Origin: an uncultured Spirochaetaceae bacterium
GTDB lineage: Bacteria; Spirochaetota; Spirochaetia; Sphaerochaetales; Sphaerochaetaceae
Direction: 5' to 3'
Assembly (NCBI GenBank): GCA_944389015.1
Contig: CALXKS010000065.1
Coordinates: 1 to 64,000, forward strand
Length of the DNA: 64,000 bases
A program made the position numbers and the translations under genes. The notes under the pieces were generated by a model. That model searched no databases. It was not told where the DNA came from and worked only from the letters and a program-made list of their open reading frames with translations. Each line of letters begins with the position of its first letter. Position 1 is the first letter of the stretch. This document shows positions 3,312 through 61,578 of this stretch, piece by piece.

Positions 3312-4325
3312 TCAGACCATAAAACTATTATCACGGAGGATAAGCGCCTCTCCCACAGCTCTTATCATTCCTTTCAGACTCGCTTCTCCCTTTCCAGCCA
3401 GACGCAATCCGGCATCCCCTGGGATCCCTATCCTCAGGAAAGGCAGTCCCCATGATATTATAAGCATCTCATCAGGTGATGCCGCGCCACAGGCTGCAAA
3501 TGCCTCGCCCGCCGTCATGACAAGAATAGCAGCGAACTCACCCCTTGCGCTTCTTGAGAATAGCTCCTCAGCTGCAATAGGCCCCTCGACATCCATGCCG
3601 AGGGTCTTTGCGATAGTGACAGCGGGGATTATCGCATCATATTCCTCTGTGCCAAGCCATTCGCCATCTCCATCCTGCGGATTCAGGGCACCTACAGCTA
3701 TGGGAAGGCTTTTGTCGAAGTAGCTCGATACTTTGAGGGCATCGATCTTTATAAGAGCCTCAATGACATTCTCCCGGGTTATCTTATCGATGGCGGACCT
3801 TACAGAACGCCTATGCGTAAGGCCGAAGGCATTTATGCTTCCTGCATTGACCATATTCACCAGTCTGTCTGTCTGAGCGAATCTTCTCAGCATCTCATGG
3901 ACGCTTCTCACATCATACCCGGCCTCATGGAGGGAAACATTGCTGACAGGGCATGTGACAAGCGATTGCCCAAGCCCGTTCTGTATGATATCCACAGCGC
4001 TTTCCAATGCTTTGTAAGAGGCCTCTCCAGTATCTGCCGAAGGAATGCCATACCGGAATGCTTTCATATCGATAGAAGAGGACGAGAAGAATATAAGTCT
4101 CTCTTCCCTTCCTTCTGCTTCTATCAGGGCATCGATATCATCGGCATATGAGGAGAATGGCAGAACAAGCGAAAGATCCGATGCGATGCGGTCAAAGACC
4201 CCGCGGTCTCCTGTAACGATCAAGCCAGCATCAGGCGTAGCAGAGAGAGCGATTACAGTCCGGAGGATTATCTCCGGAGATGTTCCCGCAGCCTCTCCCA
4301 TGGATAGAACTGCGTATCTGAGCAT
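3312..4325 (-). CDS. PdxA-like protein with altered active site
   Basis: The 337-residue protein aligns along its length with 4-hydroxythreonine-4-phosphate dehydrogenase: MGEAAGTSPEI near residue 9, LTHRR at 169-173, ALNPQDGDGEWLGTEEY at 213-229 and LAGKGEA at 309-315. Genuine PdxA binds its metal through three histidines. Here only the His at 171 is visible. The NPHAGE His is Gln217, the YHDQG segment reads VMTAGEA (269-275), and the DHGTA segment reads GDAGL (303-307). A changed or lost dehydrogenase activity is therefore likely. The start codon has no SD and sits 6 nt after TATCAT. Confidence 0.75.
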   Translation of the reverse strand: MLRYAVLSMGEAAGTSPEIILRTVIALSATPDAGLIVTGDRGVFDRIASDLSLVLPFSSYADDIDALIEAEGREERLIFFSSSSIDMKAFRYGIPSADTGEASYKALESAVDIIQNGLGQSLVTCPVSNVSLHEAGYDVRSVHEMLRRFAQTDRLVNMVNAGSINAFGLTHRRSVRSAIDKITRENVIEALIKIDALKVSSYFDKSLPIAVGALNPQDGDGEWLGTEEYDAIIPAVTIAKTLGMDVEGPIAAEELFSRSARGEFAAILVMTAGEAFAACGAASPDEMLIISWGLPFLRIGIPGDAGLRLAGKGEASLKGMIRAVGEALILRDNSFMV

Positions 4326-4331
4326 ATCCGG

Positions 4332-4340
4332 ATGATAACA
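4332..4340 (-). promoter_or_regulatory. Extended -10 directly before the PdxA-like start
   Basis: On the minus strand TGT-TATCAT is followed by six bases and then the ATG at 4325. Transcription would start at or next to the start codon, predicting a leaderless mRNA. Confidence 0.45.
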
Positions 4341-4388
4341 TCTCAGACTGTTTCAGGAAAGATAGCAATTGCAGAAGCAGCTGAAAAC

Positions 4389-5498: not shown

Positions 5499-5733
5499 TC
5501 AACCCCCTTTTATAGAAAAAACCCATGACGTCCATATTGCGGACCTCCTACAGCAAAACAATGGAACGGATGGATGTAATTCTATATGGATATTGTAAAT
5601 CCTGAAAAATCAGCTGTCAAATTCAGTACAGACAGCAGATTCATGCAATCCTTTGCAGATAGCTTCAGAAAGAAAAAAATCACCTGATTGCCATAATCCT
5701 GTTTCAGGGATACAAGAGAGAAAGGAGGATATG

Positions 5734-6504: not shown

Positions 6505-6534
6505 TTCAAAAGGAAACTCCCTTGCTTTACATGG

Positions 6535-6560
6535 AGAACGGGCTTCTTGTCCGTTCTTTT
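6535..6560 (+). terminator. Intrinsic terminator after the nucleosidase gene
   Basis: AGAACGG (6535-6541) pairs with CCGTTCT (6551-6557) and a T run follows. Confidence 0.75.
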
Positions 6561-6593
6561 CATTTCTTTGAAGGATGCATGAAACAACCATCA

Positions 6594-6602
6594 TGCTATA
6601 CT
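6594..6602 (+). promoter_or_regulatory. Extended -10 ahead of the 47-residue ORF
   Basis: TGC-TATACT ends 6 nt before the ATG at 6609. The -35 is poor (GATGCA). This suggests a leaderless transcript. Confidence 0.4.
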
Positions 6603-6608
6603 TGATGC

Positions 6609-6752
6609 ATGTGCTTTGAAGATGACGAATACGATGACGATATCGATGAGCTTTTCTCCATAATCCCCGATGTCGAATCGAATGCGGCTGATGATGGGGA
6701 GGAAAGCGAATATGAAGATCTGGACGATGAGGTATTCGATATAGATTTCTGA
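6609..6752 (+). CDS. Possible small acidic protein, 47 residues
   Basis: The frame reads a very acidic 47-residue peptide beginning MCFEDDEYDDD and ending DEVFDIDF, with only one Cys and no Lys or Arg. It has no SD but has a good extended -10 six bases upstream, as other genes here do. No family is recognised. The opposite strand also stays open (64 codons), but that frame starts without an SD and would be an Ile-rich mirror of the acidic codons, so the plus frame is preferred. It could still be non-coding. Confidence 0.4.
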   Translation: MCFEDDEYDDDIDELFSIIPDVESNAADDGEESEYEDLDDEVFDIDF

Positions 6753-6771
6753 TGTTTCTGTTAAAAGTATC

Positions 6772-6812
6772 TTGACTATATCCACGATTCTTCTTACAGT
6801 AACTATGTTACT
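6772..6812 (+). promoter_or_regulatory. Promoter with palindromic operator for the ABC importer
   Basis: TTGACT (6772-6777) and TACAGT (6795-6800) are 17 nt apart. A perfect inverted repeat AGTAAC-TAT-GTTACT (6798-6812) covers the end of the -10 and the predicted start site, an ideal place for a repressor. The SD AAGGAG follows before the ATG at 6827. Confidence 0.6.
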
Positions 6813-6826
6813 ACAAGGAGAATCAA

Positions 6827-11998: not shown

Positions 11999-12000
11999 GC

Positions 12001-17031: not shown

Positions 17032-17705
17032 ACAGTCCCATCCTTGAGCATATAGCCAGCACCGCGGACAGTATGTATCAGCTTTGTATTCTCCCCGTCA
17101 TCGATCTTCTTCCTCAGATACCTTATATAGACATCGATGACATTGGACTCTCCGTCATAATCCCAGGACCAGATATGGCTTCTCAGGCTTTCCCTGCCAA
17201 GTACAATCCCCTGATTATGCATCATGTATTCAAGGATCGAGAATTCCTTTGCACTGAGATCGATCTTCCGGCCACGCCTGCGAACAGAGCGGGAAGAGGT
17301 ATCCATCACAAGATCCCCGCACTCCAGTACCGATGAGGATGCTGCTGTATTCCTTCTGAGGAGAACACGTATACGCGCAAGAAGCTCAGGAAACATGAAT
17401 GGCTTCACAAGATAGTCATCAGCCCCTGCGTCAAGCCCGATTACACGGTCCTCGATACCGTCCCTTGCTGTAAGGAGGAGTATCGGGGAAGTCCCTCCGT
17501 TCCTCCTGTATTCCTTCAGTACTGAAATCCCATCACGGCCCGGCATCATTATGTCCATGACAGCTATGTCATACGGAGTTGATGAAAGATACTCGAAAGC
17601 CGAGTCTCCATCTGTCACTGCATCAACGGCATATCCCTCATCCTCAAGGGTCTTCCGGATAAGCGAATTAAGCTCCTTCTCATCCTCTGCAAGCAATATT
17701 CTCAT
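17028..17705 (-). CDS. OmpR/PhoB-family response regulator
   Basis: The 225-residue regulator has a receiver domain with acidic pocket E7/D8, phosphoacceptor D51 (VMDIMMPG) and K101. The C-terminal winged helix (about 130-222) ends GAGYML. It should bind direct-repeat DNA as a phosphorylated dimer. It is the first gene of the two-gene operon. There is no SD; TGG-TATTAT ends 7 nt before the ATG, so translation is probably leaderless. Confidence 0.93.
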   Translation of the reverse strand: MRILLAEDEKELNSLIRKTLEDEGYAVDAVTDGDSAFEYLSSTPYDIAVMDIMMPGRDGISVLKEYRRNGGTSPILLLTARDGIEDRVIGLDAGADDYLVKPFMFPELLARIRVLLRRNTAASSSVLECGDLVMDTSSRSVRRRGRKIDLSAKEFSILEYMMHNQGIVLGRESLRSHIWSWDYDGESNVIDVYIRYLRKKIDDGENTKLIHTVRGAGYMLKDGTV

Positions 17706-17712
17706 ATTCAGG

Positions 17713-17721
17713 ATAATACCA
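17713..17721 (-). promoter_or_regulatory. Extended -10 of the two-component operon
   Basis: Minus-strand TGG-TATTAT is followed by seven bases and the ATG at 17705, predicting a leaderless transcript. Confidence 0.5.
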
Positions 17722-17746: not shown

Positions 17747-18214
17747 CTAATACCGTTTCGCGCTTATCCTCACTGCATCCAGACGTATGATCGCAGTATG
17801 GGACAGCACTGTTTCCGGGATATCCCAATCATAGCGTGAAGTATAATGCTCCATTATCTTCCTCATACCATGGAGCTTTTCCTTGCCATCTGTGATGACC
17901 CGTGCGATGCCTGTACCTATCACTGACTGATACCGCATGCTGAACTCACAGGCCTCATTTCCTGCAACCAGCCCTTTGGCGCTATCAAGCTCAAAGCCGA
18001 CGCTTGGAGATAGCCCGATGAGATCGATCTTACGGCCGGAGATGGCTGAATGCATGTAGAAAACAAATACGTCTCCAACTTCCTCTATGCCGAATGAGAG
18101 TGGCACGATATAGGGGCCATCCTCAGCATTCATCGCTATGCGTATCGTGTCCATTCCTGCGATCATCGCAGCAATCTCTTTCCTGTCTGTTACCTCTCTG
18201 TCCTTTCTCCGCAT
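17747..18214 (-). CDS. NimA/pyridoxamine oxidase-like flavin-binding protein
   Basis: The 155-residue split-barrel protein has the family start MRRKDREVTDRKEI, then MNAEDGPYIVPLSF and FYMHSAISGRKID, ending RISAKRY. The family includes 5-nitroimidazole resistance proteins and other FMN- or heme-binding enzymes; the substrate is unknown. The frame is open further upstream (to 18322), but homology begins at 18214, and CATAAT ends 6 nt before that ATG. An upstream start at 18280 next to AAGAAGGG is the alternative. Confidence 0.75.
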   Translation of the reverse strand: MRRKDREVTDRKEIAAMIAGMDTIRIAMNAEDGPYIVPLSFGIEEVGDVFVFYMHSAISGRKIDLIGLSPSVGFELDSAKGLVAGNEACEFSMRYQSVIGTGIARVITDGKEKLHGMRKIMEHYTSRYDWDIPETVLSHTAIIRLDAVRISAKRY

Positions 18215-18220
18215 AAGGAA

Positions 18221-18226
18221 ATTATG
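18221..18226 (-). promoter_or_regulatory. -10 box directly before the NimA-like start
   Basis: Minus-strand CATAAT followed by six bases and ATG 18214. The -35 (TTCTCC, 17-nt spacer) is weak. Confidence 0.3.
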
Positions 18227-22237: not shown

Positions 22238-22243
22238 TATATT
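22238..22243 (+). promoter_or_regulatory. -10 box before the 22251 gene
   Basis: TATATT ends 7 nt before the ATG. TAGCCT, 17 nt further up, resembles the TAGCCA found in the same place before the 41034 gene. Confidence 0.4.
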
Positions 22244-22250
22244 CCAGTTT

Positions 22251-22835
22251 ATGGGAAAGATTAAAAGCGCATGGGAAATTGCCCTTGAGAAAACAGAGGG
22301 CATCACGATAGATAAGGATAAGTTCCGCCATGGAGAGGAAGTCTCCAGGGCCCGCCGCATTGCAGGTTCATATCTCACAGGAGATGAGACAGATGCAGCA
22401 AAGCTGAAGAAAGAACTTGAAGCAGTTGATCCAGCAGCGAGGAAAGAAGCTCTGACAGCTTCAATACTCTCTTCTCTATCCCTTCCGCAGGAGGAAGTCG
22501 TAGATGGCAGATTCGAGAAGACAAAGACTCTGGCGTCAATTGCCTCCGATGACGATCCGAACATCATGGGACTTGTAGGAGAGCTATCTGATTTCCTCAT
22601 GCAGTATCCTAAGCACAGAAAGGATCTTGTCGAGAAGATGAAAGAGCAGTTCAGGCCTGTTCTTGAGGAGAAAGAGGCAAAGCTCCGTGCCCAGTACGGA
22701 CAGGATGTGCACATTGCCCCTGAGAGTGACAAGGAGTTTCTCGAGGTCGCATCAAAGAATCTTGAAAGATTGCAGGCCCAGTATGATGCTACGCTCCAGA
22801 ATGCGAAGAAGCAGCTTCAGGATATGCTCTCATAA
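22251..22835 (+). CDS. Spirochaete-type conserved hypothetical protein
   Basis: The 194-residue soluble protein is highly charged and almost wholly helical, beginning MGKIKSAWEIALEKTEGI and ending in a Gln-rich helix (ERLQAQYDATLQNAKKQLQ). I believe similar proteins are frequent in spirochaetes, but I cannot assign a function. No signal or membrane segment is present. There is no SD, so it is a leaderless candidate, and the gene stands alone between divergent TRIC and the RNA gene. Confidence 0.75.
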   Translation: MGKIKSAWEIALEKTEGITIDKDKFRHGEEVSRARRIAGSYLTGDETDAAKLKKELEAVDPAARKEALTASILSSLSLPQEEVVDGRFEKTKTLASIASDDDPNIMGLVGELSDFLMQYPKHRKDLVEKMKEQFRPVLEEKEAKLRAQYGQDVHIAPESDKEFLEVASKNLERLQAQYDATLQNAKKQLQDMLS

Positions 22836-28890: not shown

Positions 28891-28919
28891 CTGTCAAACA
28901 GAATAGATTCTGCTATCCT
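28891..28919 (+). promoter_or_regulatory. Promoter of the CCA-adding enzyme gene
   Basis: CTGTCA (28891-28896), 17-nt spacer, TGC-TATCCT (28911-28919). The -10 ends 7 nt before the ATG at 28927. Confidence 0.5.
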
Positions 28920-28926
28920 CTGTTAT

Positions 28927-30282
28927 ATGCGGATGACGATTCCAGAAGATATCATAGAGCTTTCATCTATTTTCCGTGAAAACGGATTCACGCTTTACCT
29001 TGTAGGAGGAGCTGTAAGGGATTATATCCTCGGCAAGGATAACAATGACTATGACTTCACAACAGATGCTGAACCCGATGATATCAAGAGGATGTTCAGA
29101 AAAACCATCGATACAGGTATAAAGCATGGTACCGTCACTGTAATATTCCATAGGAAGCACTATGAGATCACGACGTTCCGCGTTGACGGCGATTACAGCG
29201 ATTCACGCCACCCTGAAACGGTGGAATTCGTGAAGAGCCTTGAGGAGGATCTCAGCCGCCGCGATTTCACGATCAATGCTTTCGCCGCAGAGCTTCCTGA
29301 CGGGAAGATAATAGACTTGCACGGCGGTATGCATGATCTCAGGAAGAAGATAATCAGGGCAATCGGTGAACCGGAAAGGAGATTCGAGGAAGATGCCCTG
29401 AGGATGATGCGCGGCTGCCGTTTCTCAGCTCAGCTGGGATTCTCCATAGAGAAGGATACAATGAAAGCAATGGAAAAGCTCTCCGGGACCATCAGGAAAG
29501 TATCTGCGGAAAGGATAAAGGAAGAGCTCTTCAGGCTTATAGGATCGGAACATCCCAGAATGGGGCTGGAGGCGATGAGGATCACAGGGCTTATGGATGA
29601 AATCCTTCCGGAGCTTGCTGCCGCATATGGCTTTGAGCAGGGAGGTCTCCACAGCGAGGACCTCTACGAGCATCTCATTCTCGCACTCGAATGGTCCACC
29701 AATCATGACTACCCGATGTCTGTACGCCTTGCATCCCTTCTCCATGATATCGGGAAGACCGCTGTCAGAGCCCCTGGCAAGGACAGGATGTGGACATTCT
29801 ACGGCCACGAGGAGGCCTCTGCGAAGATGGTGGATTCCATATTCCGCCGTCTCAAGACATCGAATGAAGAACGTGAGAGCGTCATGCATCTGGTGAAGAA
29901 CCATATGTTCTCCTACACTCCAGACTGGAGCGGAAGCGCTGTCAGAAGATTCATAAAACGTGTAGGAATCGAGAACATTGATCCTCTTTTCGAGCTGCGG
30001 ATCGCTGATATGAACGCAACTCTTGGGCATGCTCCAGACATCTCGAATCTCTATGCGTTCGCTGACAGGATAAACGAGGAGCTGGACAGGGAAAGCGCCC
30101 TGTCAATCAAGGATCTGGAAATCAACGGGACAAGAATGATGGAGCTTGGAATCAAGCCGGGACCTGCAATCGGAAAGATCCTCGCAGAGCTTCTCGATGA
30201 AGTCATAGAGGATCCTTCTCTGAACAATAAGGATTATCTTGAGAAACGGGCTATCAGCCTTTCTCAATGCCGAGAGCAATAA
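28927..30282 (+). CDS. CCA-adding enzyme / tRNA nucleotidyltransferase
   Basis: The 451-residue protein has the class II nucleotidyltransferase motif LVGGAVRD (about 24-31) and metal site DYDFTT (40-45). A head/neck region follows, with RRDFTINAFA and RFEEDALRMMRG, then an HD domain (HDIGK...HEEAS). It adds or repairs the CCA tail; this matters because the tRNA-Gln in this window lacks an encoded CCA. Homology starts at 28927. There is no SD, and the -10 is immediately upstream, so it is a leaderless candidate. The 3' end overlaps rnc by 29 bp. Confidence 0.9.
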   Translation: MRMTIPEDIIELSSIFRENGFTLYLVGGAVRDYILGKDNNDYDFTTDAEPDDIKRMFRKTIDTGIKHGTVTVIFHRKHYEITTFRVDGDYSDSRHPETVEFVKSLEEDLSRRDFTINAFAAELPDGKIIDLHGGMHDLRKKIIRAIGEPERRFEEDALRMMRGCRFSAQLGFSIEKDTMKAMEKLSGTIRKVSAERIKEELFRLIGSEHPRMGLEAMRITGLMDEILPELAAAYGFEQGGLHSEDLYEHLILALEWSTNHDYPMSVRLASLLHDIGKTAVRAPGKDRMWTFYGHEEASAKMVDSIFRRLKTSNEERESVMHLVKNHMFSYTPDWSGSAVRRFIKRVGIENIDPLFELRIADMNATLGHAPDISNLYAFADRINEELDRESALSIKDLEINGTRMMELGIKPGPAIGKILAELLDEVIEDPSLNNKDYLEKRAISLSQCREQ

Positions 30283-31554: not shown

Positions 31555-31583
31555 TTGATAGCCATCCCTCTCATTGCTATCTT
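31555..31583 (+). promoter_or_regulatory. Promoter of yidD with start site at the ATG
   Basis: TTGATA (31555-31560), 17-nt spacer ending TGC, TATCTT (31578-31583), then seven bases and the ATG at 31591. The -10 element is identical to that of the tRNA-Gln promoter. Confidence 0.65.
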
Positions 31584-31590
31584 TCATACC

Positions 31591-31869
31591 ATGAAGATCC
31601 TAAGGGAGTTGTATCTCATCCCAGTCTATATGTACAAGCTTCTTCTCAGTCCGTTCTTCGGGCCCTGCTGCCGGTATACCCCTTCCTGTTCCATATACAT
31701 GATGCAGAGCGTCAGGAAGCATGGAATCATAAAAGGAACGATAATGGGCACAGCAAGGCTTCTCAGATGCCGCAAGAGCTTTCTGGGAGGACCGGACCCC
31801 GTTCCTGATGAATGGTCATGGGCAAGGATACGCTCAGACTGGAAAGCATATAAGATCAGGAGCAGATAG
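31591..31869 (+). CDS. yidD: YidD membrane-insertion efficiency factor
   Basis: The 92-residue protein has an amphipathic N-terminus and the conserved core SPFFGPCCRYTPSCSIYMMQSV...GTARLLRCRKSFLGGPDPVP. YidD helps YidC insert membrane proteins. The family start is the ATG at 31591; upstream codons are promoter. No SD is present. Its 3' end overlaps udk by 14 bp. Confidence 0.92.
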   Translation: MKILRELYLIPVYMYKLLLSPFFGPCCRYTPSCSIYMMQSVRKHGIIKGTIMGTARLLRCRKSFLGGPDPVPDEWSWARIRSDWKAYKIRSR

Positions 31870-40166: not shown

Positions 40167-40970
40167 TCACCCTGAAATTATGAAACTAGCCATGAATATA
40201 CCATAATTTTCGGTTTTTTCAATCTCAAAAGAACTGCTGGAAGGGAATATGGCGATCCAGCCGGAACCGGATCCTGTAAGAGAGACATAGCAAGGCCCTT
40301 CAGAATCGAGGAAAGGACGCTCTGCAGATGACACGAGCTCAAAATCATTGCTGTAGATCTTCTCATCGGGAACGGGGCTGAAGACAAGCGGAGGAAGCTC
40401 TCTATCCTCCCTCTCCATGCTATCAAGACGTCTGTATGCATCAGCAGTCCGGACCCTGCTTTCCGGAACGCAGACACAGACCTTAAGTCCTTCCGGGATC
40501 CTGACAGGGCTCAGAATCTCCCCGCGCCCTGTAACATGGGCGGCACTATAGCCGGATGCAAAGAATATGACATCGCTACCGGTCATTGCTGCAGCCTTCA
40601 TCAGATTCTCATGGGAAGTCCCGAAATGCGTAGTCAGCATCCTCAGGATAGCTGCAGCATCGGAAGAGCCTCCTCCCAGGCCCGCCCCTGCAGGTATCCG
40701 CTTGGTGATGGAAATATCGATGGAGAAAGGTATCCCCGTAACAGCAGAGAAAGCTGCTGCTGCTGTCTCCATGAGATCTTTTCCGTCAACGATGTATTCG
40801 CATTCTTTCGCTATATGACAGGAAAAGCTATCTGAGCATCTGATTTCAGCTGACACATCATCATAGAGATCTATCAATGCCATGTATGTATCTATATCAT
40901 GGTAGCCATCAGGGCGTTTTCTCCCTACATGCAGCCCGATGTTCACCTTGGCATACGCTCTTTCTCTCAC
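40167..40970 (-). CDS. ispE: 4-diphosphocytidyl-2-C-methyl-D-erythritol kinase
   Basis: The 267-residue GHMP kinase has AYAKVNIGLHV with the catalytic Lys, and the ATP loop PAGAGLGGGSSDAAA. It performs the fourth step of the MEP isoprenoid pathway. The start is GTG at 40970, exactly where transcription should begin from TGC-TATAAT six bases upstream, so the mRNA is predicted to be leaderless with a GTG start. Confidence 0.93.
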   Translation of the reverse strand: MRERAYAKVNIGLHVGRKRPDGYHDIDTYMALIDLYDDVSAEIRCSDSFSCHIAKECEYIVDGKDLMETAAAAFSAVTGIPFSIDISITKRIPAGAGLGGGSSDAAAILRMLTTHFGTSHENLMKAAAMTGSDVIFFASGYSAAHVTGRGEILSPVRIPEGLKVCVCVPESRVRTADAYRRLDSMEREDRELPPLVFSPVPDEKIYSNDFELVSSAERPFLDSEGPCYVSLTGSGSGWIAIFPSSSSFEIEKTENYGIFMASFIISG

Positions 40971-40976
40971 ACAATG

Positions 40977-41005
40977 ATTATAGCAGAAAGAGGCAATATA
41001 GCCAA
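40977..41005 (-). promoter_or_regulatory. ispE promoter, leaderless geometry
   Basis: Minus-strand TTGGCT (41005-41000), 17-nt spacer ending TGC, then TATAAT (40982-40977); six bases separate it from GTG 40970. Its -35 overlaps the -35 of the divergent HAD gene. Confidence 0.65.
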
Positions 41006-41027
41006 AAGATGCGTTTTACCGTATTCT
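40999..41027 (+). promoter_or_regulatory. HAD-gene promoter, overlapping the ispE promoter
   Basis: TAGCCA (40999-41004), 17-nt spacer, TATTCT (41022-41027), then six bases to ATG 41034. Confidence 0.45.
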
Positions 41028-41033
41028 AGAGAC

Positions 41034-41792
41034 ATGGCTATCAAGGGGATTATCTTTGATAAGGATGGAACACTCTTCGATTATGGGAAGGTATGGGGTC
41101 CTATAGTCCGCGATGCCATATATGCTGGACTGCAGACGATCCATATCCCTGAAGAGAGGAAGAAGGAATGCGCATATGACTTCATGAGAGTGCTTGGAGT
41201 CGATGCCGATGGAAACACATATCCGGATGGTGTGATCTTCCGCCATGACAGGCTCATTGCCGCATTCTTCCGCGTGCTTAAGGTCACGCTTCACTATCAC
41301 ATTAATCCCGTGAAGGTCGGGATGCTCTTCCGCATCTTTCTAAGCAAGGATGAGAAAGGCATCGCAAAGAGAATCTCCACAATGGAATTCCCAGGCGTTG
41401 CAGAGGTTTTCCAGGAAGCTGCCAGCCGCGGCTACAGAATGGGAATAGTCACGAATGACAGCACTGTCTCGACAGAGCTATTCCTGGACAGGATGGGCAT
41501 CAGGGAATATATAACATTCCTCCGGACAAAGGACAGCCAGACAAAGCCGAAACCGAATCCCGAAGCACTCAGGGAGTTCTGTCAGGAAATGGGAATTGAA
41601 AGCTCTGAAGCAGCAATCATCGGAGACACCCTTGTCGATATGGAATTCGGTATCCAGGGCAAGGCCGGCTACAGGATCGCAGTGCTCACCGGATCGGGGG
41701 ATGTCGAGGGGCTGGGCAAGAAAGCAGATGCTGTATATCCGACTCTTCATGATGTGCTCAAGGATCCGGTACTGTTTCCGGAGAAGAGCTGA
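41034..41792 (+). CDS. HAD-family phosphatase (phosphoglycolate-phosphatase-like)
   Basis: The 252-residue protein has HAD motif I FDKDGTLFD (nucleophile D9, acid D11), motif II in GIVTND, motif III Lys in TKPKPNPE and motif IV GDTLVDMEFG. The substrate is uncertain; the Gph/PGP subfamily is closest. Homology starts at MAIKGIIFDKDG. There is no SD, so it is a leaderless candidate. Its stop overlaps the RluA gene by one base. Confidence 0.85.
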   Translation: MAIKGIIFDKDGTLFDYGKVWGPIVRDAIYAGLQTIHIPEERKKECAYDFMRVLGVDADGNTYPDGVIFRHDRLIAAFFRVLKVTLHYHINPVKVGMLFRIFLSKDEKGIAKRISTMEFPGVAEVFQEAASRGYRMGIVTNDSTVSTELFLDRMGIREYITFLRTKDSQTKPKPNPEALREFCQEMGIESSEAAIIGDTLVDMEFGIQGKAGYRIAVLTGSGDVEGLGKKADAVYPTLHDVLKDPVLFPEKS

Positions 41793-43000: not shown

Positions 43001-43766
43001 AAGCTATCCGGCCATCCTTGACATAGGGATCAAGGACATCGAATCCGGAATCGGATGCGAATGCACGGCAGAAAGGAAGCGTCCTGTCAAGATTCTTCAC
43101 GGTATGTGCATCAGATGAGATAACAGCAGTGCTGACATAATCCCTGGCTATATGCCAGAAGCACGGGGAGGGATATCCCTCCGATTCATCGTTTCCCTTC
43201 AGCAGTCCGTTTCCATTGATCTCCAGAGGGATGGAAAGCTCTGCTGCAGCAGAAGCTATTGTGATCGCGGCCTCCTCTGCCACCTTGTCGAACCGGCGCC
43301 TGCATAGAAAGACATCTGGATGGGCAAGAAAGCTTATAAGGCCCGTCTCCATGACCTTCACCGCTGCATCCGCATACCGTCTGACATCATCGTCGGAGAA
43401 TCCCGGATTGAATGGGGTATGGTAGGTTCCATCCGGACAAGCTACGAAATGGACTCCTGCTATAAGATAATCAACATGCTCCAAAACCGTTCTGAAATAG
43501 CTGTCGAACTCCTCTGAATAATCGATCTCATACCCAAGGAGAACGGGGAAGGAATGCTCAGAGGCCCTTGCCCTCACATCCTTCTCATATGTCCCCATCA
43601 TGGCGAAAGGCATGCGCGTCCTATGGAAAAGCTCCGTAGGAAACGGACAATGCTCAGAAAAGCCAAGGACCTCGAAACCTTCAGCTGATGCATAGTCAGC
43701 ATATTCGGCAATCTCTCCCGAACCATGGCCGCAGTAATGGGAGTGCGTATGGAGATTGTAAAGCAT
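42978..43766 (-). CDS. PHP-domain phosphatase (HisJ-like)
   Basis: The 262-residue PHP protein has HTHSHYCGHG, GFSEHCPFP, the AHPD metal site and SSDAH, the pattern of histidinol-phosphatases of the HisK/HisJ type. No his genes are near, so the substrate is open. The start is ATG 43766 (homology MLYNLHTHSH); GATAAT ends 6 nt upstream and no SD is seen. The promoter lies inside the 3' end of the coiled-coil gene. Confidence 0.85.
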   Translation of the reverse strand: MLYNLHTHSHYCGHGSGEIAEYADYASAEGFEVLGFSEHCPFPTELFHRTRMPFAMMGTYEKDVRARASEHSFPVLLGYEIDYSEEFDSYFRTVLEHVDYLIAGVHFVACPDGTYHTPFNPGFSDDDVRRYADAAVKVMETGLISFLAHPDVFLCRRRFDKVAEEAAITIASAAAELSIPLEINGNGLLKGNDESEGYPSPCFWHIARDYVSTAVISSDAHTVKNLDRTLPFCRAFASDSGFDVLDPYVKDGRIAFRKEQES

Positions 43767-43772
43767 GGCAAT

Positions 43773-43802
43773 ATTATCCCACTCATCGGGAGAAGCTATC
43801 AA
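43773..43802 (-). promoter_or_regulatory. PHP-gene promoter inside the upstream gene's 3' end
   Basis: Minus-strand TTGATA (43802-43797), 18-nt spacer ending TGG, then GATAAT (43778-43773), six bases, ATG 43766. Confidence 0.5.
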
Positions 43803-44769
43803 GACGCAGGCGGAGTCTATCGATTTCCTCCTTTATTCCCGCAATCTCGTCATCGATCCTCGCCTTTTCAGCCTCCAGTATCCGTATCTTCTTCTCCTCG
43901 CTCTCAATCATTGCCCTTACGCTGTCAGCTCTTTCCTTCTTTCTGAGAACCATTCTTCTATCGATCAGGGCACTGTAGCGATCATGCTCTGAGAGAAGAG
44001 CCTGCAGCATATCAAGAATAGACGAAGGGGTGCTCTCGGATATCCATTCAGAACCATTCTCATAGAGATAGGAACCGAAGCTTACGAATTTCCTCTCCTC
44101 TTCAGCCTGCAGCTTAGCAAGATTCCGCCTGCTGTCCTCAAGTCCCTGTCTGACAGACATTGAGTAGGACTGCTTATTATCATCAAGGTAGTCAGAAAGC
44201 TCAGTTATCCTGCCGACAAGCACTGCATCTTTCCTCTGAATCTCCCTTATTTCTCCCAGCAGCTCCTTCGCCCCACCCTGCATGCGGCTATCGAGATTCT
44301 CCTCAAGAACCCTGGAAGCATAGGACAGGAACCTGTCATCGCTGCTTTTCCTGGCAAAGCGGGACAGGAAGCTTTTCCTCCCCTCTGTACTGCTTGAGAT
44401 ATCATTATAGATAGCAGAGAAGCAATCCTTATCAAGAAGAGCGAATGAGCACTGTTCATAGAGGACCGCTCCAAGCCTGATAGAGAGAAGCCGCATAGAG
44501 CTCTGCAGAGCCTTCTCCTCCCTCTCCACAGCTGTCTTCTCAGCCTTCCTAGCCTCATAGTCAGCAATGAAAGCCTTGACCTCTGCCAGCTCCTCTTCGG
44601 CCTTCTGTCTCAGAGAGACAGCTGTACGGCAGTCCTCGATAAGCTTTGTTCCTTCTTCTACAGCAAGTGTTTCAGCCGCGACTCCAAGACTGTAGGACAG
44701 ACTCCTGAGACGCGCTGTCGATGCCTCGATCATCTTCTCATTCTCAGCTTCAAGATCCAATGATGCCAT
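43783..44769 (-). CDS. Coiled-coil protein of unknown function
   Basis: The 328-residue cytoplasmic protein has long heptad-like helices at about 60-100 and 265-325, the latter rich in Glu/Lys/Arg (RKKERADSVRAMIESEEKK). A less regular, Ser-rich middle lies between them. No signal, TM or known domain. It is probably spirochaete-restricted. There is no SD; TGC-TAGACT ends six bases before the ATG. Confidence 0.7.
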   Translation of the reverse strand: MASLDLEAENEKMIEASTARLRSLSYSLGVAAETLAVEEGTKLIEDCRTAVSLRQKAEEELAEVKAFIADYEARKAEKTAVEREEKALQSSMRLLSIRLGAVLYEQCSFALLDKDCFSAIYNDISSSTEGRKSFLSRFARKSSDDRFLSYASRVLEENLDSRMQGGAKELLGEIREIQRKDAVLVGRITELSDYLDDNKQSYSMSVRQGLEDSRRNLAKLQAEEERKFVSFGSYLYENGSEWISESTPSSILDMLQALLSEHDRYSALIDRRMVLRKKERADSVRAMIESEEKKIRILEAEKARIDDEIAGIKEEIDRLRLRLDSFSR

Positions 44770-44775
44770 AAAGAA

Positions 44776-44784
44776 AGTCTAGCA
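44776..44784 (-). promoter_or_regulatory. Extended -10 before the coiled-coil gene
   Basis: Minus-strand TGC-TAGACT, six bases, then ATG 44769; TTTGCA lies 16 nt further upstream. Confidence 0.45.
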
Positions 44785-47386: not shown

Positions 47387-48556
47387 CTATTTATCGATTC
47401 CCATCTCCTCAGGAAGCTCTATGTCATCACCCTCATGGGACATCTGATTCCTTCTCTTCCGTTTCTTATCGAAATCACGGCGATAGTACCTGCCTTCTGA
47501 AAGAAGTATCGCTATCGGTCTGAGTGATGGTATATTGGCACAGACAATCTGTATAGTCGAAGTAAGAGGAACTGCCAGGAACATTCCTGCAAGCCCCCAT
47601 ATATAACCCCATACAGCAAGTGCTACGAGTATAACAAGAGGAGAGATATTCAGCTGCACTCCCTGAAGCTTAGGGTCAATGATATTCCCGACGACCATCT
47701 CGATGCCGATCATAAGGACTGTCACATAGATCACATTGCTCCAGTCAGGTGCGAACTGGATAAGAGCCATGATTATCGTTCCAGCTGTGCATATGATCGA
47801 TCCGATAGTCGGGATGAAGTTCAGGATAACGGCAAGCACACCCCATACCAGAGCGAAATCAAGACCCGTGATAATAGCGGCAAAGTAGAAAAGCACACCT
47901 GTTATAAGGCTGATGATCAGCTTAAGGAACGTGTACTTCGCCGTCTGCCTGTTCATCCTTGCAATCATCTGGGAGACTCTCTGGACCTTTCCTCTTGGAA
48001 GAGCTGCCATAAGCTTAGGCAGGATTGTCTGCCTCTCAAGAATCAGGAACAGAAGGTAAAGCAGGACAAGCATAGCATCGGAGATTATGGAAATGAACTT
48101 GCCTGATATCGAGGTGAGCGACGACATAGCAACGCCATACCAGTTGATGTCCAGATAGGCCAGCAGGCTGAATGAAGCAGGATCTTCTTCCAGATAAGGT
48201 GCTATGAATGCTGACAGCTGCCTATCAAGCAGCTGGACTCTGACAGCATATGCAGGCAGACCTGTATCGGACTGAAGCAGCATGTTAACCATCACAAAGA
48301 AGATATAGCCGAAGAGGATGAATACCGCCACGACGAGGACCAGTGTGATGATCATTGAGATCCACCGGGGAATACGCATCTTGTCCATTCTGGAAAGAAC
48401 TGGGTTGACTACGATGAACACAAAGAGCGCGATGACCAGCGGAATCATTATATTCGCAGTCAATTTAAGAATATAAAGTATGAGAACTGCGCCGAAACCG
48501 ATAAGTATGTTCCTTATCTGACGTCCGGTACTATCATTAGGCTGCGAAAGATTCAT
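47387..48556 (-). CDS. AI-2E (PerM)-family permease
   Basis: The 389-residue protein has seven to eight membrane segments in the UPF0118 pattern, including GVLAVILNFIPTIGSIICT and DPKLQG...LVILVALAVWGYIWGLAGMFLAVPL. Members export AI-2 or act as ion antiporters; which one is unknown. There is no SD; a perfect TATAAT ends six bases before the ATG. Confidence 0.88.
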   Translation of the reverse strand: MNLSQPNDSTGRQIRNILIGFGAVLILYILKLTANIMIPLVIALFVFIVVNPVLSRMDKMRIPRWISMIITLVLVVAVFILFGYIFFVMVNMLLQSDTGLPAYAVRVQLLDRQLSAFIAPYLEEDPASFSLLAYLDINWYGVAMSSLTSISGKFISIISDAMLVLLYLLFLILERQTILPKLMAALPRGKVQRVSQMIARMNRQTAKYTFLKLIISLITGVLFYFAAIITGLDFALVWGVLAVILNFIPTIGSIICTAGTIIMALIQFAPDWSNVIYVTVLMIGIEMVVGNIIDPKLQGVQLNISPLVILVALAVWGYIWGLAGMFLAVPLTSTIQIVCANIPSLRPIAILLSEGRYYRRDFDKKRKRRNQMSHEGDDIELPEEMGIDK

Positions 48557-48562
48557 AGGTGG

Positions 48563-48568
48563 ATTATA
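48563..48568 (-). promoter_or_regulatory. TATAAT directly before the AI-2E-type gene
   Basis: Minus-strand TATAAT, six bases (CCACCT), then ATG 48556. The CCACCT is the complement of an SD rather than an SD. Confidence 0.5.
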
Positions 48569-52439: not shown

Positions 52440-52468
52440 TTTTCACAAACAGCTTTTTCATTGATAAT
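52440..52468 (+). promoter_or_regulatory. Promoter before the YeiH-type gene
   Basis: TTTTCA, 17-nt spacer, GATAAT (52463-52468), then seven bases to ATG 52476. Confidence 0.35.
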
Positions 52469-52475
52469 CAGCACC

Positions 52476-53507
52476 ATGACACAGAATTCAGACAAAAGCA
52501 TGCTGATGGGCATTCTTCTATGCTTGATTATCTCGATTCCTGCTTACATACTTGGCACATACTTCCCAATCATAGGCGGACCGGTAATAGCAATTCTTGC
52601 AGGCATGGCCATAGCCATATTCCTGAAGGATAAATCAGCTTTCGGAAAGGGAATAAAGTTCGTATCGAAGAAAGTCCTGCAATGGGCTGTCATTCTTCTC
52701 GGATTCGGAATGAACCTCTCTGTCGTAGCAGAGACAGGACTGCAGTCCCTTCCTATAATCATTTCCACGATAACCGTATCCCTTCTTGTCGCATACCTGC
52801 TTTCAAAAGCAATGAAGATACAGAAGAATACAGGGACTCTCATCGGAGTAGGCTCCTCCATCTGCGGAGGTTCTGCGATTGCAGCGGCAAGTCCTGTGAT
52901 AGGAGCGGATGATGAAGAGGTCGCACAGGCAATCTCGGTCATATTCTTCTTCAATGTGCTTGCTGCGATAATCTTCCCTGCCCTTGGAACGGTCATAGGC
53001 TTCAGCACATCAAGCGGTGAGGCGTTCGGGATATTCGCAGGAACGGCAGTGAATGACACATCATCTGTCACGGCCTGTGCATCAACATGGGACAGCATGT
53101 GGGGACTGGGATCAGAGACCCTTGATAAAGCCGTCACTGTGAAGCTGACCAGAACACTGGCAATCATCCCTATAACGCTGATTCTCGCTTTCATCAGGAC
53201 GAAGAAGGAAGGAACAGACAGCAAGGTCTCACTCAAGTCCGTGTTCCCGTTCTTCATACTATTCTTCGTGCTCGCATCGATAATCACAACTGTATGCACA
53301 GCATTCGGAGTTCCTGAAAGCACATTCGCCCCATTCAAGACGCTGTCGAAATTCATGATAGTCCTTGCCATGGCGGCCATCGGGCTGAATACGGATATCG
53401 TAAAGCTTGTGAAAACTGGCGGAAAGCCACTCATACTGGGACTCTCCTGCTGGGTATCGATCACAGCGGTATCACTGCTGATGCAGCATCTTCTAAATCT
53501 GGTCTGA
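52476..53507 (+). CDS. YeiH/PSE-family membrane protein (putative sulfate exporter)
   Basis: The 343-residue protein has ten or so hydrophobic segments and the family motif [18 protein letters not shown]. Members are annotated as sulfate or sulfonate-related exporters without firm proof. An in-frame TTG at 52461 overlaps the -10 and is not used here; ATG 52476 has no SD, another leaderless candidate. Confidence 0.87.
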
Positions 53508-57251: not shown

Positions 57252-57259
57252 ATTCTTTC

Positions 57260-58669
57260 CTAAAGAATAAGAGCTTCAGCATCGGCCTGAAGGGAAAGCC
57301 CCTGGAGAAGGAGGATATCATGATCGAAATCAAGGAGATGGAGCTCCATCTCGGCATCATGGACATCCTCTGCGGCAACAAGTCCTCTTTCATGCTTCAC
57401 CAAGGCCATCTCATAAAGCGATCTCTTATAGCTTACCTCTGCTTCCAGCTCCGCTCTCTCCCTCTCCCAGGAAAGCATTCTTCCCCAGAGGTCCTCCCTG
57501 CTATCCTCAAATGAACGAAGAGCATCACGATAATCATCTTCCTTGATCCTGGCCTCATTCCGGAGGGATCTGAGCCGCAGATCATCGCTTTCCGATGTCC
57601 CGCTTCTCCATGAAGCATAGAGCGCAAGGGAAGGAGTGAATCCGAAATCATGATCCCAGGTTCCGCCGCCCGTGGCAGACAAGGACCAGTCATTACCTTC
57701 CCATCCGACAGTGCCACCGAGCTTCAATGCATCCTCCCTCGTTCCCGTCAGGGGATAGAGTCCTTCAGCTATCTCCGCGCTTCCACCAGCCTCTCCCCCT
57801 ATAGTTAGCTTCCTCGGATTCTGTTGAGACTCCTCAAGAAGCACATTCTCCTCTGCGATAAGCATCTCCACTTCCGCCTCATTCACGGTAGAAGAAGAGA
57901 TAACAGATAGGATTTCAGGGAAGACAGGCTCCGGGATATCCGTTAGACCATCCCATGAAAGCCCGGTAAGAGCCGAATACCGGAGCAGGAGCTCCTCCCT
58001 CTCCCTCTCGGAGATCCTGAGAGAATCCTCGCTTCTCTTCCTCTCGAGCATAAGCTCCTGATAAAGAAGAGAGCCCTCTGTGGTTATTCCCAGAGAGATT
58101 GAATCCGAGATATCCCTGTCTATATCCTTCAGCATCTCCCTGCTCTCCTCGATGCTCTTCTCATTTGAAAGGATCTCAATCATCAATGAAATGGTATTCT
58201 GCCTGATTGAGAGCTTTCCCGTCCCATACTGCCTTCCACCAGACATCCGGAGAGCCTCTGTCTGGAGATCCTTCAGCTTCTCGTCATCATGGCCCCAGTC
58301 AAATGTATGGCTGATGGAGAGAGACGGAGAGATGACTGCACCTCTTCCATCGTATCGTATTCCAGATGGAACAGAAGCTGAGATGGTCGTATCGTCATCA
58401 GGAAGCACAACGCCGAATGACAGCTCATTTATACGAAGTATTCCATCATCCATATCGGCAAGGGGATCCGCAGCAAATGAAACTGAGTAATCAACGGTAT
58501 CATCAAGCTCTGATTCGGCTATCGATATGAGGCCGGCTTCATATGACAGTTCAAGACCTGCTGCATCCTGACTCTCATTCTCCATTACAGCCATTATCCC
58601 ATCATAGGATGCGGAATATGCTGAACTGGGGATGATAAGAAAGAATAATGCAATGAAAAGCCGTACCAT
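57260..58669 (-). CDS. TolC-like outer-membrane efflux protein
   Basis: The 469-residue protein has a cleavable signal peptide (IIPSSAYSA) and two repeats of long helices around beta segments, as in TolC. The second repeat has ARIKEDDYRDALRSFEDSRED and YKRSLYEMALVKHERGL. It would be the outer-membrane duct for the MacAB-like pump. First gene of the four-gene operon; no SD, TATTAT ends 7 nt before the ATG. Confidence 0.8.
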   Translation of the reverse strand: MVRLFIALFFLIIPSSAYSASYDGIMAVMENESQDAAGLELSYEAGLISIAESELDDTVDYSVSFAADPLADMDDGILRINELSFGVVLPDDDTTISASVPSGIRYDGRGAVISPSLSISHTFDWGHDDEKLKDLQTEALRMSGGRQYGTGKLSIRQNTISLMIEILSNEKSIEESREMLKDIDRDISDSISLGITTEGSLLYQELMLERKRSEDSLRISEREREELLLRYSALTGLSWDGLTDIPEPVFPEILSVISSSTVNEAEVEMLIAEENVLLEESQQNPRKLTIGGEAGGSAEIAEGLYPLTGTREDALKLGGTVGWEGNDWSLSATGGGTWDHDFGFTPSLALYASWRSGTSESDDLRLRSLRNEARIKEDDYRDALRSFEDSREDLWGRMLSWERERAELEAEVSYKRSLYEMALVKHERGLVAAEDVHDAEMELHLLDFDHDILLLQGLSLQADAEALIL

Positions 58670-58676
58670 AACCTAG

Positions 58677-58682
58677 ATAATA
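58677..58682 (-). promoter_or_regulatory. -10 box before the TolC-like gene
   Basis: Minus-strand TATTAT, seven bases, then ATG 58669; TTGTTC lies 17 nt further upstream. Confidence 0.4.
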
Positions 58683-58747
58683 TATTGAAAAAGCATACAG
58701 AACAAAGAGCCAAACCCGGAAAGAGGCATGAAAGCTTTCCTGCACAG

Positions 58748-60547
58748 TCAACTTTGCAGCTTCTCTGCCCTCGCATCTGCCCGTTCTACCATCGACCGCT
58801 GCCAGGAAAGCAGTCTGTCATGCTCCCCGATTCCAGAACCCTTCACATTCACCATGATGCGGCATACAGGCTCTGTCCGTGATCTGCTGAGCCAGAGATA
58901 GGCAATGGCTTCTCCTTCCCCGTCAATGAACTGCACTTTGTATCCGCCAGATGATGGATACGGCCGATGCTCAGGTCCCATTCCAGTATATTCATCGGCT
59001 CCTTCATACTGCTTGATTTCATATGAAACTGCATCTGATGCCATATTCCCGCTGATTTCCGATGAGAGAATCTTCTCATACTCTGCCTTCAGAGCATCGA
59101 AATCCCTGCTCCTGATCTTCATTACAGCAGCCTTTGAGAATGATGGAGTCATATGATACCGGGGGAATGCGGAGACGAGCCTATCTATAGATACTCCATC
59201 GCCTTCTTCCTTTCCAAGTGCTTTCATGAGATTGCCATAAACACCCGGCACTGACCACAGCTTCGATATGGTCATAACGGAATTCATGGGATCGCGGACC
59301 TTCGAAGGATATGCTATTATGCCTCCGTTGCTGCCCTCTCCGCAGACTGGGACGATATATCCCCGGCTTCTGAGGTTCTCTGACAGCGATACGACATTTG
59401 CCTCTCCTATATCGGAACGGAAGACCTCTACGCCTATTCTTGAGGCGATATCATCGACAAGCAGCGATGTAGATCCATTCACAGCAATGGCAATGGGACT
59501 GCCAGGGTTCAGCATCGCTGCATGGACAAGATCGATTGACGAAACAAGAGCGAATACACGCTGCGCATCGAGGATCTCAGCATTCCCATTATCCGCTATG
59601 TATACGAAATTGCCTCTGTCACCGTCATTATCGGGCATATAACCGAGAATAAAAGAGGGATCCTTTACATGGATATCCTCCAGGACAGCCCTCGCAGTCT
59701 CAAGATTCTCGCCTTCAGGGACGATTCCATGGGCAATCTGTCCCGGGATACCATTCATCTCCCAGATGCCGCAGCCATGCCTCCTGAGAAATGGGATATC
59801 AATCGAAGAAGAGCGTGCAGAGCCATTGAAATCAATGACAATGCCGAATGGCATGATGAAGTCCTCATCAGCATGGGCTGTCTTCATCACGAAGTCCTCA
59901 TAATACCGCAACGCATCCTTCTTTACGCTGCCATGCCTGGAAAGCACGCTCTGGTAATCATCCTCAGTGATGGATGAGGAGAGCTTTCCCATACGCTCTG
60001 CAAGTCCATCCTGTCCCACAGCTTCAAGGAAGAGTCTCTTCACCTTCTCAGCCTCCGCTCCGGGAAGAACACCGCCATCGATACCGAACTTGAATCCGTT
60101 ATGGCCGATGGGATTATGGGAAGCGGAAATATACAGGAAGCCATCGTATCCTGCATTGGAGAAGGCCATGATCTCCGGTGCAGAAGCCATGCCGAGAAGC
60201 GATACATCCGCGCCCAGGGCAATCATGATCCTGACAGCAATGGAGGTGAGGATACGCCCTGTCGGTCTGGCATCGGAACCAATGATGATCCTCGCTTCCC
60301 TTTTGCCCAGATACCTGAAGAATGCCTCTGCTGCAGCAGCGGCAAGCACTGCATCCTCATCCTTTATGTAATTGCTGTGATCCTCCTCTCCGCCGCCAGG
60401 AGCGAATACAGCCCTCCACCCTGAAACAGAGAGAATGTATCCGGAAAGTGCCCCCTGAATAGCATCGGAGGAAACATCAATTCCCTTCAGCGGATCCTCT
60501 GAGCTATCTGCGATGAAAAGTCCTGTATTCTCATCAAAGTACTTCAA
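58748..60547 (-). CDS. Phosphohexomutase (phosphogluco-/phosphomannomutase family)
   Basis: The 599-residue alpha-D-phosphohexomutase has the phosphoserine loop YISASHNPIGHNGFKFG, the metal loop DNDGDRGN and a C-terminal phosphate-binding region with SRSRTEP. It moves phosphate between C1 and C6 of a hexose. The preceding sugar 1-kinase, which it overlaps by ATGA, makes a sugar-1-phosphate, so the two plausibly work in series. Confidence 0.9.
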   Translation of the reverse strand: MKYFDENTGLFIADSSEDPLKGIDVSSDAIQGALSGYILSVSGWRAVFAPGGGEEDHSNYIKDEDAVLAAAAAEAFFRYLGKREARIIIGSDARPTGRILTSIAVRIMIALGADVSLLGMASAPEIMAFSNAGYDGFLYISASHNPIGHNGFKFGIDGGVLPGAEAEKVKRLFLEAVGQDGLAERMGKLSSSITEDDYQSVLSRHGSVKKDALRYYEDFVMKTAHADEDFIMPFGIVIDFNGSARSSSIDIPFLRRHGCGIWEMNGIPGQIAHGIVPEGENLETARAVLEDIHVKDPSFILGYMPDNDGDRGNFVYIADNGNAEILDAQRVFALVSSIDLVHAAMLNPGSPIAIAVNGSTSLLVDDIASRIGVEVFRSDIGEANVVSLSENLRSRGYIVPVCGEGSNGGIIAYPSKVRDPMNSVMTISKLWSVPGVYGNLMKALGKEEGDGVSIDRLVSAFPRYHMTPSFSKAAVMKIRSRDFDALKAEYEKILSSEISGNMASDAVSYEIKQYEGADEYTGMGPEHRPYPSSGGYKVQFIDGEGEAIAYLWLSRSRTEPVCRIMVNVKGSGIGEHDRLLSWQRSMVERADARAEKLQS

Positions 60548-61563
60548 GACTGACCTCCGAGATAATCATCCATCTCCATTATAAGATGGATCTGGTTTCT
60601 GGCTCTTACCAGATTATGATGGGCATATTCAGTTCTATAATATACATCACCATTGATATAATCAGTCAGGAATCGCAGGGCCATGATGAATGTGATAGTA
60701 CGTCCAGACTCTGCAAAAAGATCCTTCTCCATAGGGGTCAGCATATCATTCCCCTCGATATACCCATCCCTCATCGCCTCAAAGAACTCTTCCGAGAAAT
60801 GCACCTTATCAAGATCCTCCTCATCCTCTGCCGCCGTTGAGCACCCGGTCCTGATCATATCGCCGGTATCGAACAGCAGCGTACCAGGCATGACCGTATC
60901 GAGATCGATGAATGTTATGTACTCCCCTGTTCTCCTATCAAACAGAACATTTGAGAGCTTGGTGTCATTATGCGTTACACGTCTTGGCAGGAGACCATCA
61001 GCATACATATGGGAGAGCCTGGAGGCCCTTTCACGTCCGCTCATCATGAAGCAGACTTCATCGCGGACAGATGAGAGCCGCCCCGCTCTGTCCTCCCTGA
61101 TCGCATCCTCGAGCTGGGAAAAACGGTAGTCCATATCATGAAAGCGAGGTATTGTCTCACAGAGAGCTGAGGCATCGAGTCCGGAAAGAACAGTATGGAA
61201 ACTCCTCAGGGCCCGGCCCATCCGTCCTGCCATATCAGCAGAAACAATACGCTCATAGCTTATGGAATCCCCGATGAAATTATACATGCGCCATACGCCA
61301 TTGCTGCAGGAATAGCAAAGGCCGCCTTCTGCTGTCCGTATCAGGCGAAGGACAGGGATTCTTTCAAGGACTCTCGCTATATTCTCCATCACAGCATATG
61401 GATCTGTGAATACCGAAGTGTTTATCCGCTGTAGCAGAAAGCTCTCTTCTGCGGTATCAACTCTATATGTAGCATTGATATGTCCCGATGATATCTCGGA
61501 AATCCCATTGATATCATCAAGCCCGAAACACGAAGCTATAAGCTTTATGTCAGAATCTTTCAC
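60544..61563 (-). CDS. NahK-like N-acetylhexosamine 1-kinase (APH fold)
   Basis: The 339-residue APH-type kinase has ISSGHINATYRV, the catalytic loop VTHNDTKLSNVLFD and the metal segment FIDLDTVMPGTLLFDTGDMIRTG, closely the NahK pattern. It would phosphorylate GlcNAc, GalNAc or a related sugar at C1. The start is GTG at 61563, six bases after TGG-TATAAT, with no SD. Confidence 0.85.
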   Translation of the reverse strand: MKDSDIKLIASCFGLDDINGISEISSGHINATYRVDTAEESFLLQRINTSVFTDPYAVMENIARVLERIPVLRLIRTAEGGLCYSCSNGVWRMYNFIGDSISYERIVSADMAGRMGRALRSFHTVLSGLDASALCETIPRFHDMDYRFSQLEDAIREDRAGRLSSVRDEVCFMMSGRERASRLSHMYADGLLPRRVTHNDTKLSNVLFDRRTGEYITFIDLDTVMPGTLLFDTGDMIRTGCSTAAEDEEDLDKVHFSEEFFEAMRDGYIEGNDMLTPMEKDLFAESGRTITFIMALRFLTDYINGDVYYRTEYAHHNLVRARNQIHLIMEMDDYLGGQS

Positions 61564-61569
61564 GGCAGT

Positions 61570-61578
61570 ATTATACCA
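61570..61578 (-). promoter_or_regulatory. Extended -10 before the NahK-like gene
   Basis: Minus-strand TGG-TATAAT, six bases, then GTG 61563. The -35 is poor, as expected for an extended -10. Confidence 0.6.

Follow-up and report, generated by a model that had tools for sequence, protein, structure and literature searches.

The 64,000-nucleotide stretch analysed here, positions 1 to 64,000 of contig CALXKS010000065.1 (the window), belongs to the metagenome-assembled genome (MAG) GCA_944389015.1 of an uncultured gut Spirochaetaceae bacterium, 2.03 Mb in 83 contigs, and contains fifteen gene starts at which a -10-like hexamer ends 6 or 7 nucleotides (nt) before the start codon. This geometry is real, non-random and conserved in the genus of the window's organism. 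We consider it probable, at roughly 0.9, that the hexamers belong to sigma70-type promoters whose +1 would coincide with the start codon, i.e., that the genes would be transcribed as leaderless mRNAs. In the mechanism we propose, an ordinary sigma70-type promoter (TTG...-17-TGnTATAAT) would be placed such that the start codon supplies the first transcribed base, the resulting mRNA would carry neither a 5' leader nor a Shine-Dalgarno (SD) sequence, and the ribosome would have to initiate on the 5'-terminal AUG or GUG. Two initiation modes would then exist side by side in the genome, the other first genes and the operon-internal genes mostly using an SD, and a gene such as ispE could switch mode among related species.

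All fifteen start codons (13 ATG and two GTG) are present at the coordinates given below. The sites were scored by a matrix, whose training hits include some of them, at all distances d from 0 to 14 nt, d being the number of nucleotides between the end of the -10 hexamer and the start codon; the best hexamer fell at d = 6 in nine sites and at d = 7 in six, such that the geometry claimed in the initial annotation holds for all 15. Its statements that TGn precedes the hexamer at eight or more sites and that the starts lack an SD were also borne out, as TGn was found in 9/15 and an SD match of four or more bases in none of the 15. The base at position -1 is C or T in every one of them. The element said to be common to yidD and the tRNA-Gln promoter is indeed TGC-TATCTT in both, with -35 boxes TTGATA and TTGATT, respectively, each at a spacer of 17 (the tRNA was read by eye). 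Pfam assigned products to 13 of the 15 genes and gave no match for those starting at 6609 and 44769.

The genome-wide control covered 989,406 of the 2,030,754 bases of the window's genome, after sequence L011, which duplicates a portion of the window, had been dropped from the set. Genes were called with a simple codon-score finder of our own (829 genes; 828 in a first version), and the classes of "first" (459) and operon-internal (306) genes were set by gene spacing alone. Strict hexamers, i.e., those matching at least 5/6 of TATAAT with A2 and T6 required, were counted before all candidate starts around the 5' end of each gene, with no start selected beforehand. Among the 1212 ATG and GTG candidates of first genes, 46 strict hexamers lay at d = 6 and 40 at d = 7, whereas 18 other distances averaged 9.1 each; about 18 of these 86 are expected by chance. 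The peak at d = 6 and 7 was missing from three control sets, namely 6300 ATGs internal to genes and in frame, 2723 start-like codons out of frame, and the TTG candidates (3/258 versus 73/917 for ATG, p=1e-5). The genome-wide positional enrichment of the -10 motif that the initial annotation had proposed as a check is thus found at d = 6 and 7, with codon controls, and the start-codon preference (ATG, weakly GTG, not TTG) is that of a leaderless gene set.

Several marks that had not been used for selection accompany the 86 strict matches. A -35 TTG was found at spacer 17 in 19 of them, at 18 in three, at 16 in none, and in no more than two at any remaining spacer between 12 and 22; TGn precedes the hexamer in 29/86, versus 23/133 of the hexamers at other distances (p=0.009). 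The -10 hexamer is therefore accompanied by a -35 TTG at about 17 bp and/or by TGn, as in a sigma70-type promoter. A pyrimidine occupies -1 in 76/86 matches, versus 86/133 other-distance hexamers (p=7e-5) and 622/1126 other starts; at these sites the pyrimidine at -1 is paired with a purine at +1. An SD of five or more bases was found in 1/80 starts with the geometry, versus 124/379 of the remaining first genes and 147/306 genes inside operons, which agrees with the earlier remark that operon genes and some first genes keep an SD; an SD of four or more bases was found in 7/80 starts, the background at internal start-like codons being 25%. The 16S rRNA was not found in the window's own genome; in the congener G001 its 3' end stops at a contig end, just inside the anti-SD, and in three other class members it reads CCTCCTTT.

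A two-fold cross-validated matrix gave, for thresholds 0-5, an excess over control distances of 59-65 of the 459 first genes (13-14%) and of at most 14 of the 306 operon-internal genes, i.e., the leaderless-type geometry is concentrated in the first genes of transcription units; the summed excess is about 71-79 of the 765 classed genes (9-10%). A mixture model seeded with TATAAT and started from uniform distances placed a weight of 0.46 on d = 6 and 0.33 on d = 7, such that 79% of its promoter class lies at d = 6-7; this corresponds to 27% of first genes, an upper figure. The total mixture weight of 0.34 of first genes was rejected, for shifted-context controls reached 0.42-0.60 with other motifs and with no distance peak or -10 consensus (a mononucleotide shuffle left 0.29), and because of these larger control weights we give just the fraction located at d = 6-7 (0.27). 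Our best reading is that leaderless mRNAs would arise from roughly 13-27% of the first genes in the window's genome. The claim that the geometry is widespread stands at these figures, about 13-14% by cross-validated excess and up to 27% by the mixture model.

Eleven of the fifteen starts were sought in the four nearest named relatives, MAGs labelled "uncultured Spirochaetaceae bacterium", and six had relatives there. The box was at the same distance in 3/3 for the HAD hydrolase gene (41034), 3/3 for the ispE-like gene (40970), 4/4 for the gene at 44769, where TAGACT itself is retained in all four, and 4/4 for the AI-2E family transporter gene (48556). For the gene at 52476 it was so in 3/4; inspection of the fourth MAG by eye shows it ahead of an ATG that comes slightly later. 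Between the box and the start codon the sequence differs among these MAGs. For the HAD and AI-2E genes we also examined the best 30 of the 48 and 47 genus genomes with a match, the window's own included and with possible overlap with the named MAGs, picking the start by position alone, blind to the box. A hexamer matching 4/6 or more stood at d = 6 or 7 in 27/30 of these best loci for HAD and in 28/30 for AI-2E (at least 5/6 in 25/30), an SD 4-mer in 1/30 and 5/30, and a pyrimidine at -1 in 29/30 and 30/30, respectively. An earlier conservation listing, in which the in-frame start with the best box had been chosen, was rejected as biased and redone with starts by position; likewise, an apparent TGA inside many HAD matches was rejected, there being no stop inside the tblastn alignments. 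Across the 48 genus genomes, TATAAT-N6,7-ATG occurred 3538 times versus 2107 for TATAAT-N9,10-ATG, with 47/48 genomes higher at N6,7; the signal was weak for GTG (877 versus 777, p=0.015, 30/48 genomes), and TTG gave 1569 versus 1525 (p=0.44, 21/48 genomes). The ratio of N6,7 to N9,10 counts spans from 0.91 (G421) to 6.0 (G015) among these congeners, so the use of leaderless starts may differ within the genus.

The initial annotation's leaderless reading is well supported by the distance, the -1 base, the -35 spacing, the scarcity of SDs, the start-codon preference and the conservation; that transcription starts at the start codon and that translation follows a leaderless route is what we infer from them. 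A number of observations weigh against it. Hexamers at other distances have a TTG at spacer 17 too (12/133), and with spacers 16-18 pooled the difference is borderline for TTG (22/86 versus 19/133, p=0.05) and reaches p=0.11 for at least 4/6 of TTGACA (26/86 versus 27/133). Operon-internal ATGs show a small peak of their own, with eight and five hexamers at d = 6 and 7 over 550, and the share of leaderless genes is uncertain, given that the mixture weight was larger in the shifted-context controls. Taken alone, the hexamers of 41034 (TATTCT, random level 0.044) and 44769 (TAGACT, 0.014) are weak, despite which both boxes are retained in relatives; the HAD box reaches at least 5/6 at d = 6 or 7 in only 1/30 of the best genus loci. 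The box of 43766 has the weakest conservation, being at the same distance in two of the four named MAGs and absent in the other two, and the gene status of the open reading frame (ORF) at 6609 may be doubted. For ispE, a TATAAT-type box occurs only in the four nearest loci, the window's own included, among 29 genus loci with a start (rows counted by eye), and any hexamer of at least 4/6 at d = 6 or 7 in 7/29; AGGAG lies instead within 40 nt upstream of the start in 11/29 (also counted by eye). Because the box is limited to the nearest loci and AGGAG occurs in 11, the predicted initiation mode of this gene seems to change between species.

Four alternatives were weighed, and their likelihoods are not mutually exclusive. 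Leaders of 1-5 nt instead of none are unlikely, although they would be compatible with our interpretation; both spacings, d = 6 and d = 7, are present, start sites often wobble by 1-2 nt, and a leader of 1-3 nt would be compatible with the sequence, which also counts against a strictly leaderless transcript. In Leptospira, moreover, a large number of start sites have been mapped to within 0-10 nt of the start codon (PMC5243855). The pyrimidine at -1 speaks the other way, for its frequency hardly differs between the spacing classes (41/46 at d = 6, 35/40 at d = 7), the pattern predicted for a +1 at the start codon in either class. It is improbable that the promoter starts as predicted while the true start codon lies downstream in frame with an SD, the ATG at +1 being a mere transcript end. 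In-frame start codons do exist within 30 codons downstream in 9/15 genes, and the finder, by coding score alone, preferred another start (4301, 17696, 18262, 28933, 52524 and 58594) in six of the 13 list members among its gene calls; however, only one of the 15 has any downstream start preceded by an SD of four bases or more (the TTG at 31609), and an SD of five or more bases at any nearby start occurs in 8/80 genes with the geometry versus 222/379 other first genes. In the named relatives, 21/22 alignments start at residue 1, and in more distant congeners they start at residues 1-12. The signal is also far stronger on ATG than on GTG and missing on TTG, a preference that a mere transcript end would not require.

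Still less probable is that A-T-rich sequence before the starts was selected for open mRNA or for S1 binding and mimics a -10 box. Biases of this type are described before non-SD genes, in the excerpted part of one study (PMC5397173), but the hexamer seen here keeps to precisely two distances from the start, where TGn and, at spacer 17, a -35 TTG accompany it, and the signal is absent at other distances. The idea that the list gathers AT-rich hexamers met by chance can hardly be maintained: single sites such as 41034 do stand at the 4% level and about 18 of the 86 strict matches are expected by chance, yet the genome-wide peak at d = 6 and 7 with its controls, the conservation and the counts in the 48 genus genomes contradict it, and for the set as a whole the peak and the genus counts refute it. 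One or two members of the list may still be due to chance; the weakest are 6609 and 43766.

On the forward strand, the sites of the reading preferred here, leaderless promoters, begin with that of the 47-codon ORF (6597-6611), a doubtful gene whose ATG at 6609 follows TGC and TATACT (6597-6602, d = 6). The DUF6657 gene (22238-22253) has TATATT at 22238-22243, d = 7, before the ATG at 22251; the CCA-adding/polyA polymerase gene (28914-28929) has TGC and TATCCT (28914-28919, d = 7) with a -35 CTGTCA at spacer 17 before the ATG at 28927; and yidD, encoding YidD (31578-31593), carries its TATCTT at 31578-31583, d = 7, before the ATG at 31591. The remaining forward sites are those of the HAD hydrolase gene (41022-41036; TATTCT at 41022-41027, d = 6, ATG 41034) and of the Cons_hypoth698 (PF03601) gene (52463-52478; GATAAT at 52463-52468, d = 7, ATG 52476). 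On the reverse strand lie the pdxA-like gene, with the Pfam match PdxA (4325-4337; ATG 4325, TGT and TATCAT at 4332-4337, d = 6), the response regulator gene (17705-17718; ATG, TGG and TATTAT at 17713-17718, d = 7), and the Pyridox_ox_2 gene (18214-18226; ATG, CATAAT at 18221-18226, d = 6), which has more in-frame starts upstream, without an SD. The ispE-like (GHMP kinase) gene follows (40968-40982; GTG 40970, TGC and TATAAT at 40977-40982, d = 6). This gene and the HAD gene diverge, with leaderless-type starts separated by 63 nt. The PHP-domain gene (43766-43778; ATG, TGG and GATAAT at 43773-43778, d = 6) is operon-internal and starts 16 nt past the preceding gene; the gene without a Pfam match (44769-44781) has its ATG after TGC and TAGACT at 44776-44781, d = 6, and the AI-2E transporter gene (48556-48568) its ATG after TATAAT at 48563-48568, d = 6. 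For the OEP-like gene, a weak Pfam match (58669-58682; ATG, TATTAT at 58677-58682, d = 7), the product has by eye a signal-peptide-like N-terminus, and the matrix scores an internal site at 58585 above the listed one. The last is the APH-family gene (61561-61575; GTG 61563, TGG and TATAAT at 61570-61575, d = 6). Upstream of it, the -10 box overlaps with a GGAGG resembling an SD and with a frame of four codons, ATG-AAA-ATG-GTA-TAA, probably by chance.

In the mixture model the promoter-class posterior exceeded 0.5 for 12 of the 15 genes, the first-gene set being without 6609 (too short), 31591 (not called by the finder) and 43766 (classed as operon-internal). Two further first genes of the window, one ending at 22170 on the reverse strand and one starting near 51458 on the forward strand, had posteriors of 0.64 and 0.93; the matrix found no site scoring at least 3 at d = 6 or 7 for either.

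We then compared TATAAT-N6,7-ATG with TATAAT-N9,10-ATG counts in 392 genomes of the phylum, a test with little power in AT-rich genomes. The counts were 1313 versus 809 in the window's genus (17/17 genomes higher at N6,7), 890 versus 659 in the other genera of its family (f1, which we take to be Sphaerochaetaceae; 16/19), and 15,599 versus 10,872 in the other families of the class except f20 (128/142). Family f18, presumably Treponema-like, alone gave 10,906 versus 7210 (75/79). Family f20 gave 3753 versus 3601 (24/36, p=0.08); one contig of its member G197 matches 99 Borrelia plasmid records of 100 listed. Outside the class the ratio is only 1.06 (35,177 versus 33,160), yet 126/178 genomes are higher at N6,7 (p=1e-14), which points to a slight signal there too. 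Bonferroni correction was passed by 10 of 59 families, of which seven belong to the class and three do not (f40, by our guess Brachyspira-like, f56 and f60). Since the excess in f56, a single genome (G082; 351 versus 256), is among the significant ones, the leaderless trait may occur elsewhere in the phylum. Family f14 (G036, 1.4 Mb) showed a nominal deficit at d = 6-7 (33 versus 56, p=0.02 before correction). The predicted signal is no speciality of the window's genus and is widespread in the class. At the gene level, ten other sequence sets of 33-75 first genes each, too small for a firm ranking, were sampled; the d = 6-7 part of the mixture was 0.03-0.14 in nine genomes outside the genus, sampled at about 80-140 kb each, and 0.32 in the four named genus MAGs. 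In G415, perhaps a Sphaerochaeta, there were no strict hexamers at d = 6 or 7 among 153 candidates, so the use of this geometry varies inside the family.

Leaderless initiation is a known, less usual mechanism; its distribution across the class is of greater interest. The works compared here are cited from excerpts. In Leptospira interrogans, differential RNA sequencing mapped a start at most 10 nt from the start codon in 430-450 genes, and exactly at the start codon in 184 and 170 genes at two temperatures, and the excerpts report no promoter motif apart from sigma54 (PMC5243855). Leptospira is likewise a spirochaete with leaderless mRNAs, but there they were mapped by experiment, whereas here they are predicted from sequence, and in contrast to the lack of a motif there, the TGnTATAAT box and the -35 are plain here. 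TA-led (leaderless) genes, predicted in silico by the same geometry and logic of a -10 box directly before the start codon, were found in 6/18 Spirochaetes genomes, with a mean of 3.9% (PMC3160421); against that mean, use in the window's genome looks higher, with its excess of 9-10% of classed genes. Actinobacteria (about 20%) and Deinococcus-Thermus (about 40%), which are other phyla, have higher shares than here, and as here their -10 directly precedes the start and such genes are mixed with SD genes in one genome (PMC3160421). Leaderless transcription is predicted in 21.6% of bacterial species (PMC9581028), and leaderless mRNAs are remarked as frequent in Borrelia (PMC10618245), a remark that the f20 counts neither confirm nor exclude. 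In the openly licensed literature, a search combining leaderless and start-site terms with Treponema, Sphaerochaeta and Brachyspira gave no start-site study of the genus or nearer relatives among the matches listed. The earlier hint that the trait may be new for spirochaetes is therefore kept only in this last respect, for leaderless mRNAs were already mapped in Leptospira (PMC5243855) and predicted in 6/18 genomes (PMC3160421), and the signal extends across many families of the class.

It is tempting to see leaderless initiation as an old, regular second start mode across the class, including a large, probably Treponema-like family. In the genus it would serve up to about a quarter of first genes; in Borrelia and beyond the class it would be weak, hidden or lost, and it would have gone unmapped because start-site maps exist for few of the class members. 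We hold this view tentatively, at slightly less than even odds. Annotation of these spirochaetes may frequently misplace gene starts: upstream of 46 of the 86 strict sites (about 18 of the 86 being expected by chance) there are additional start codons in frame. The leaderless geometry would offer a promoter map for uncultured species, drawn from the genome alone; how the ribosomes of spirochaetes manage two initiation modes, and why genes such as ispE seem to shift between them, are questions that follow from it.

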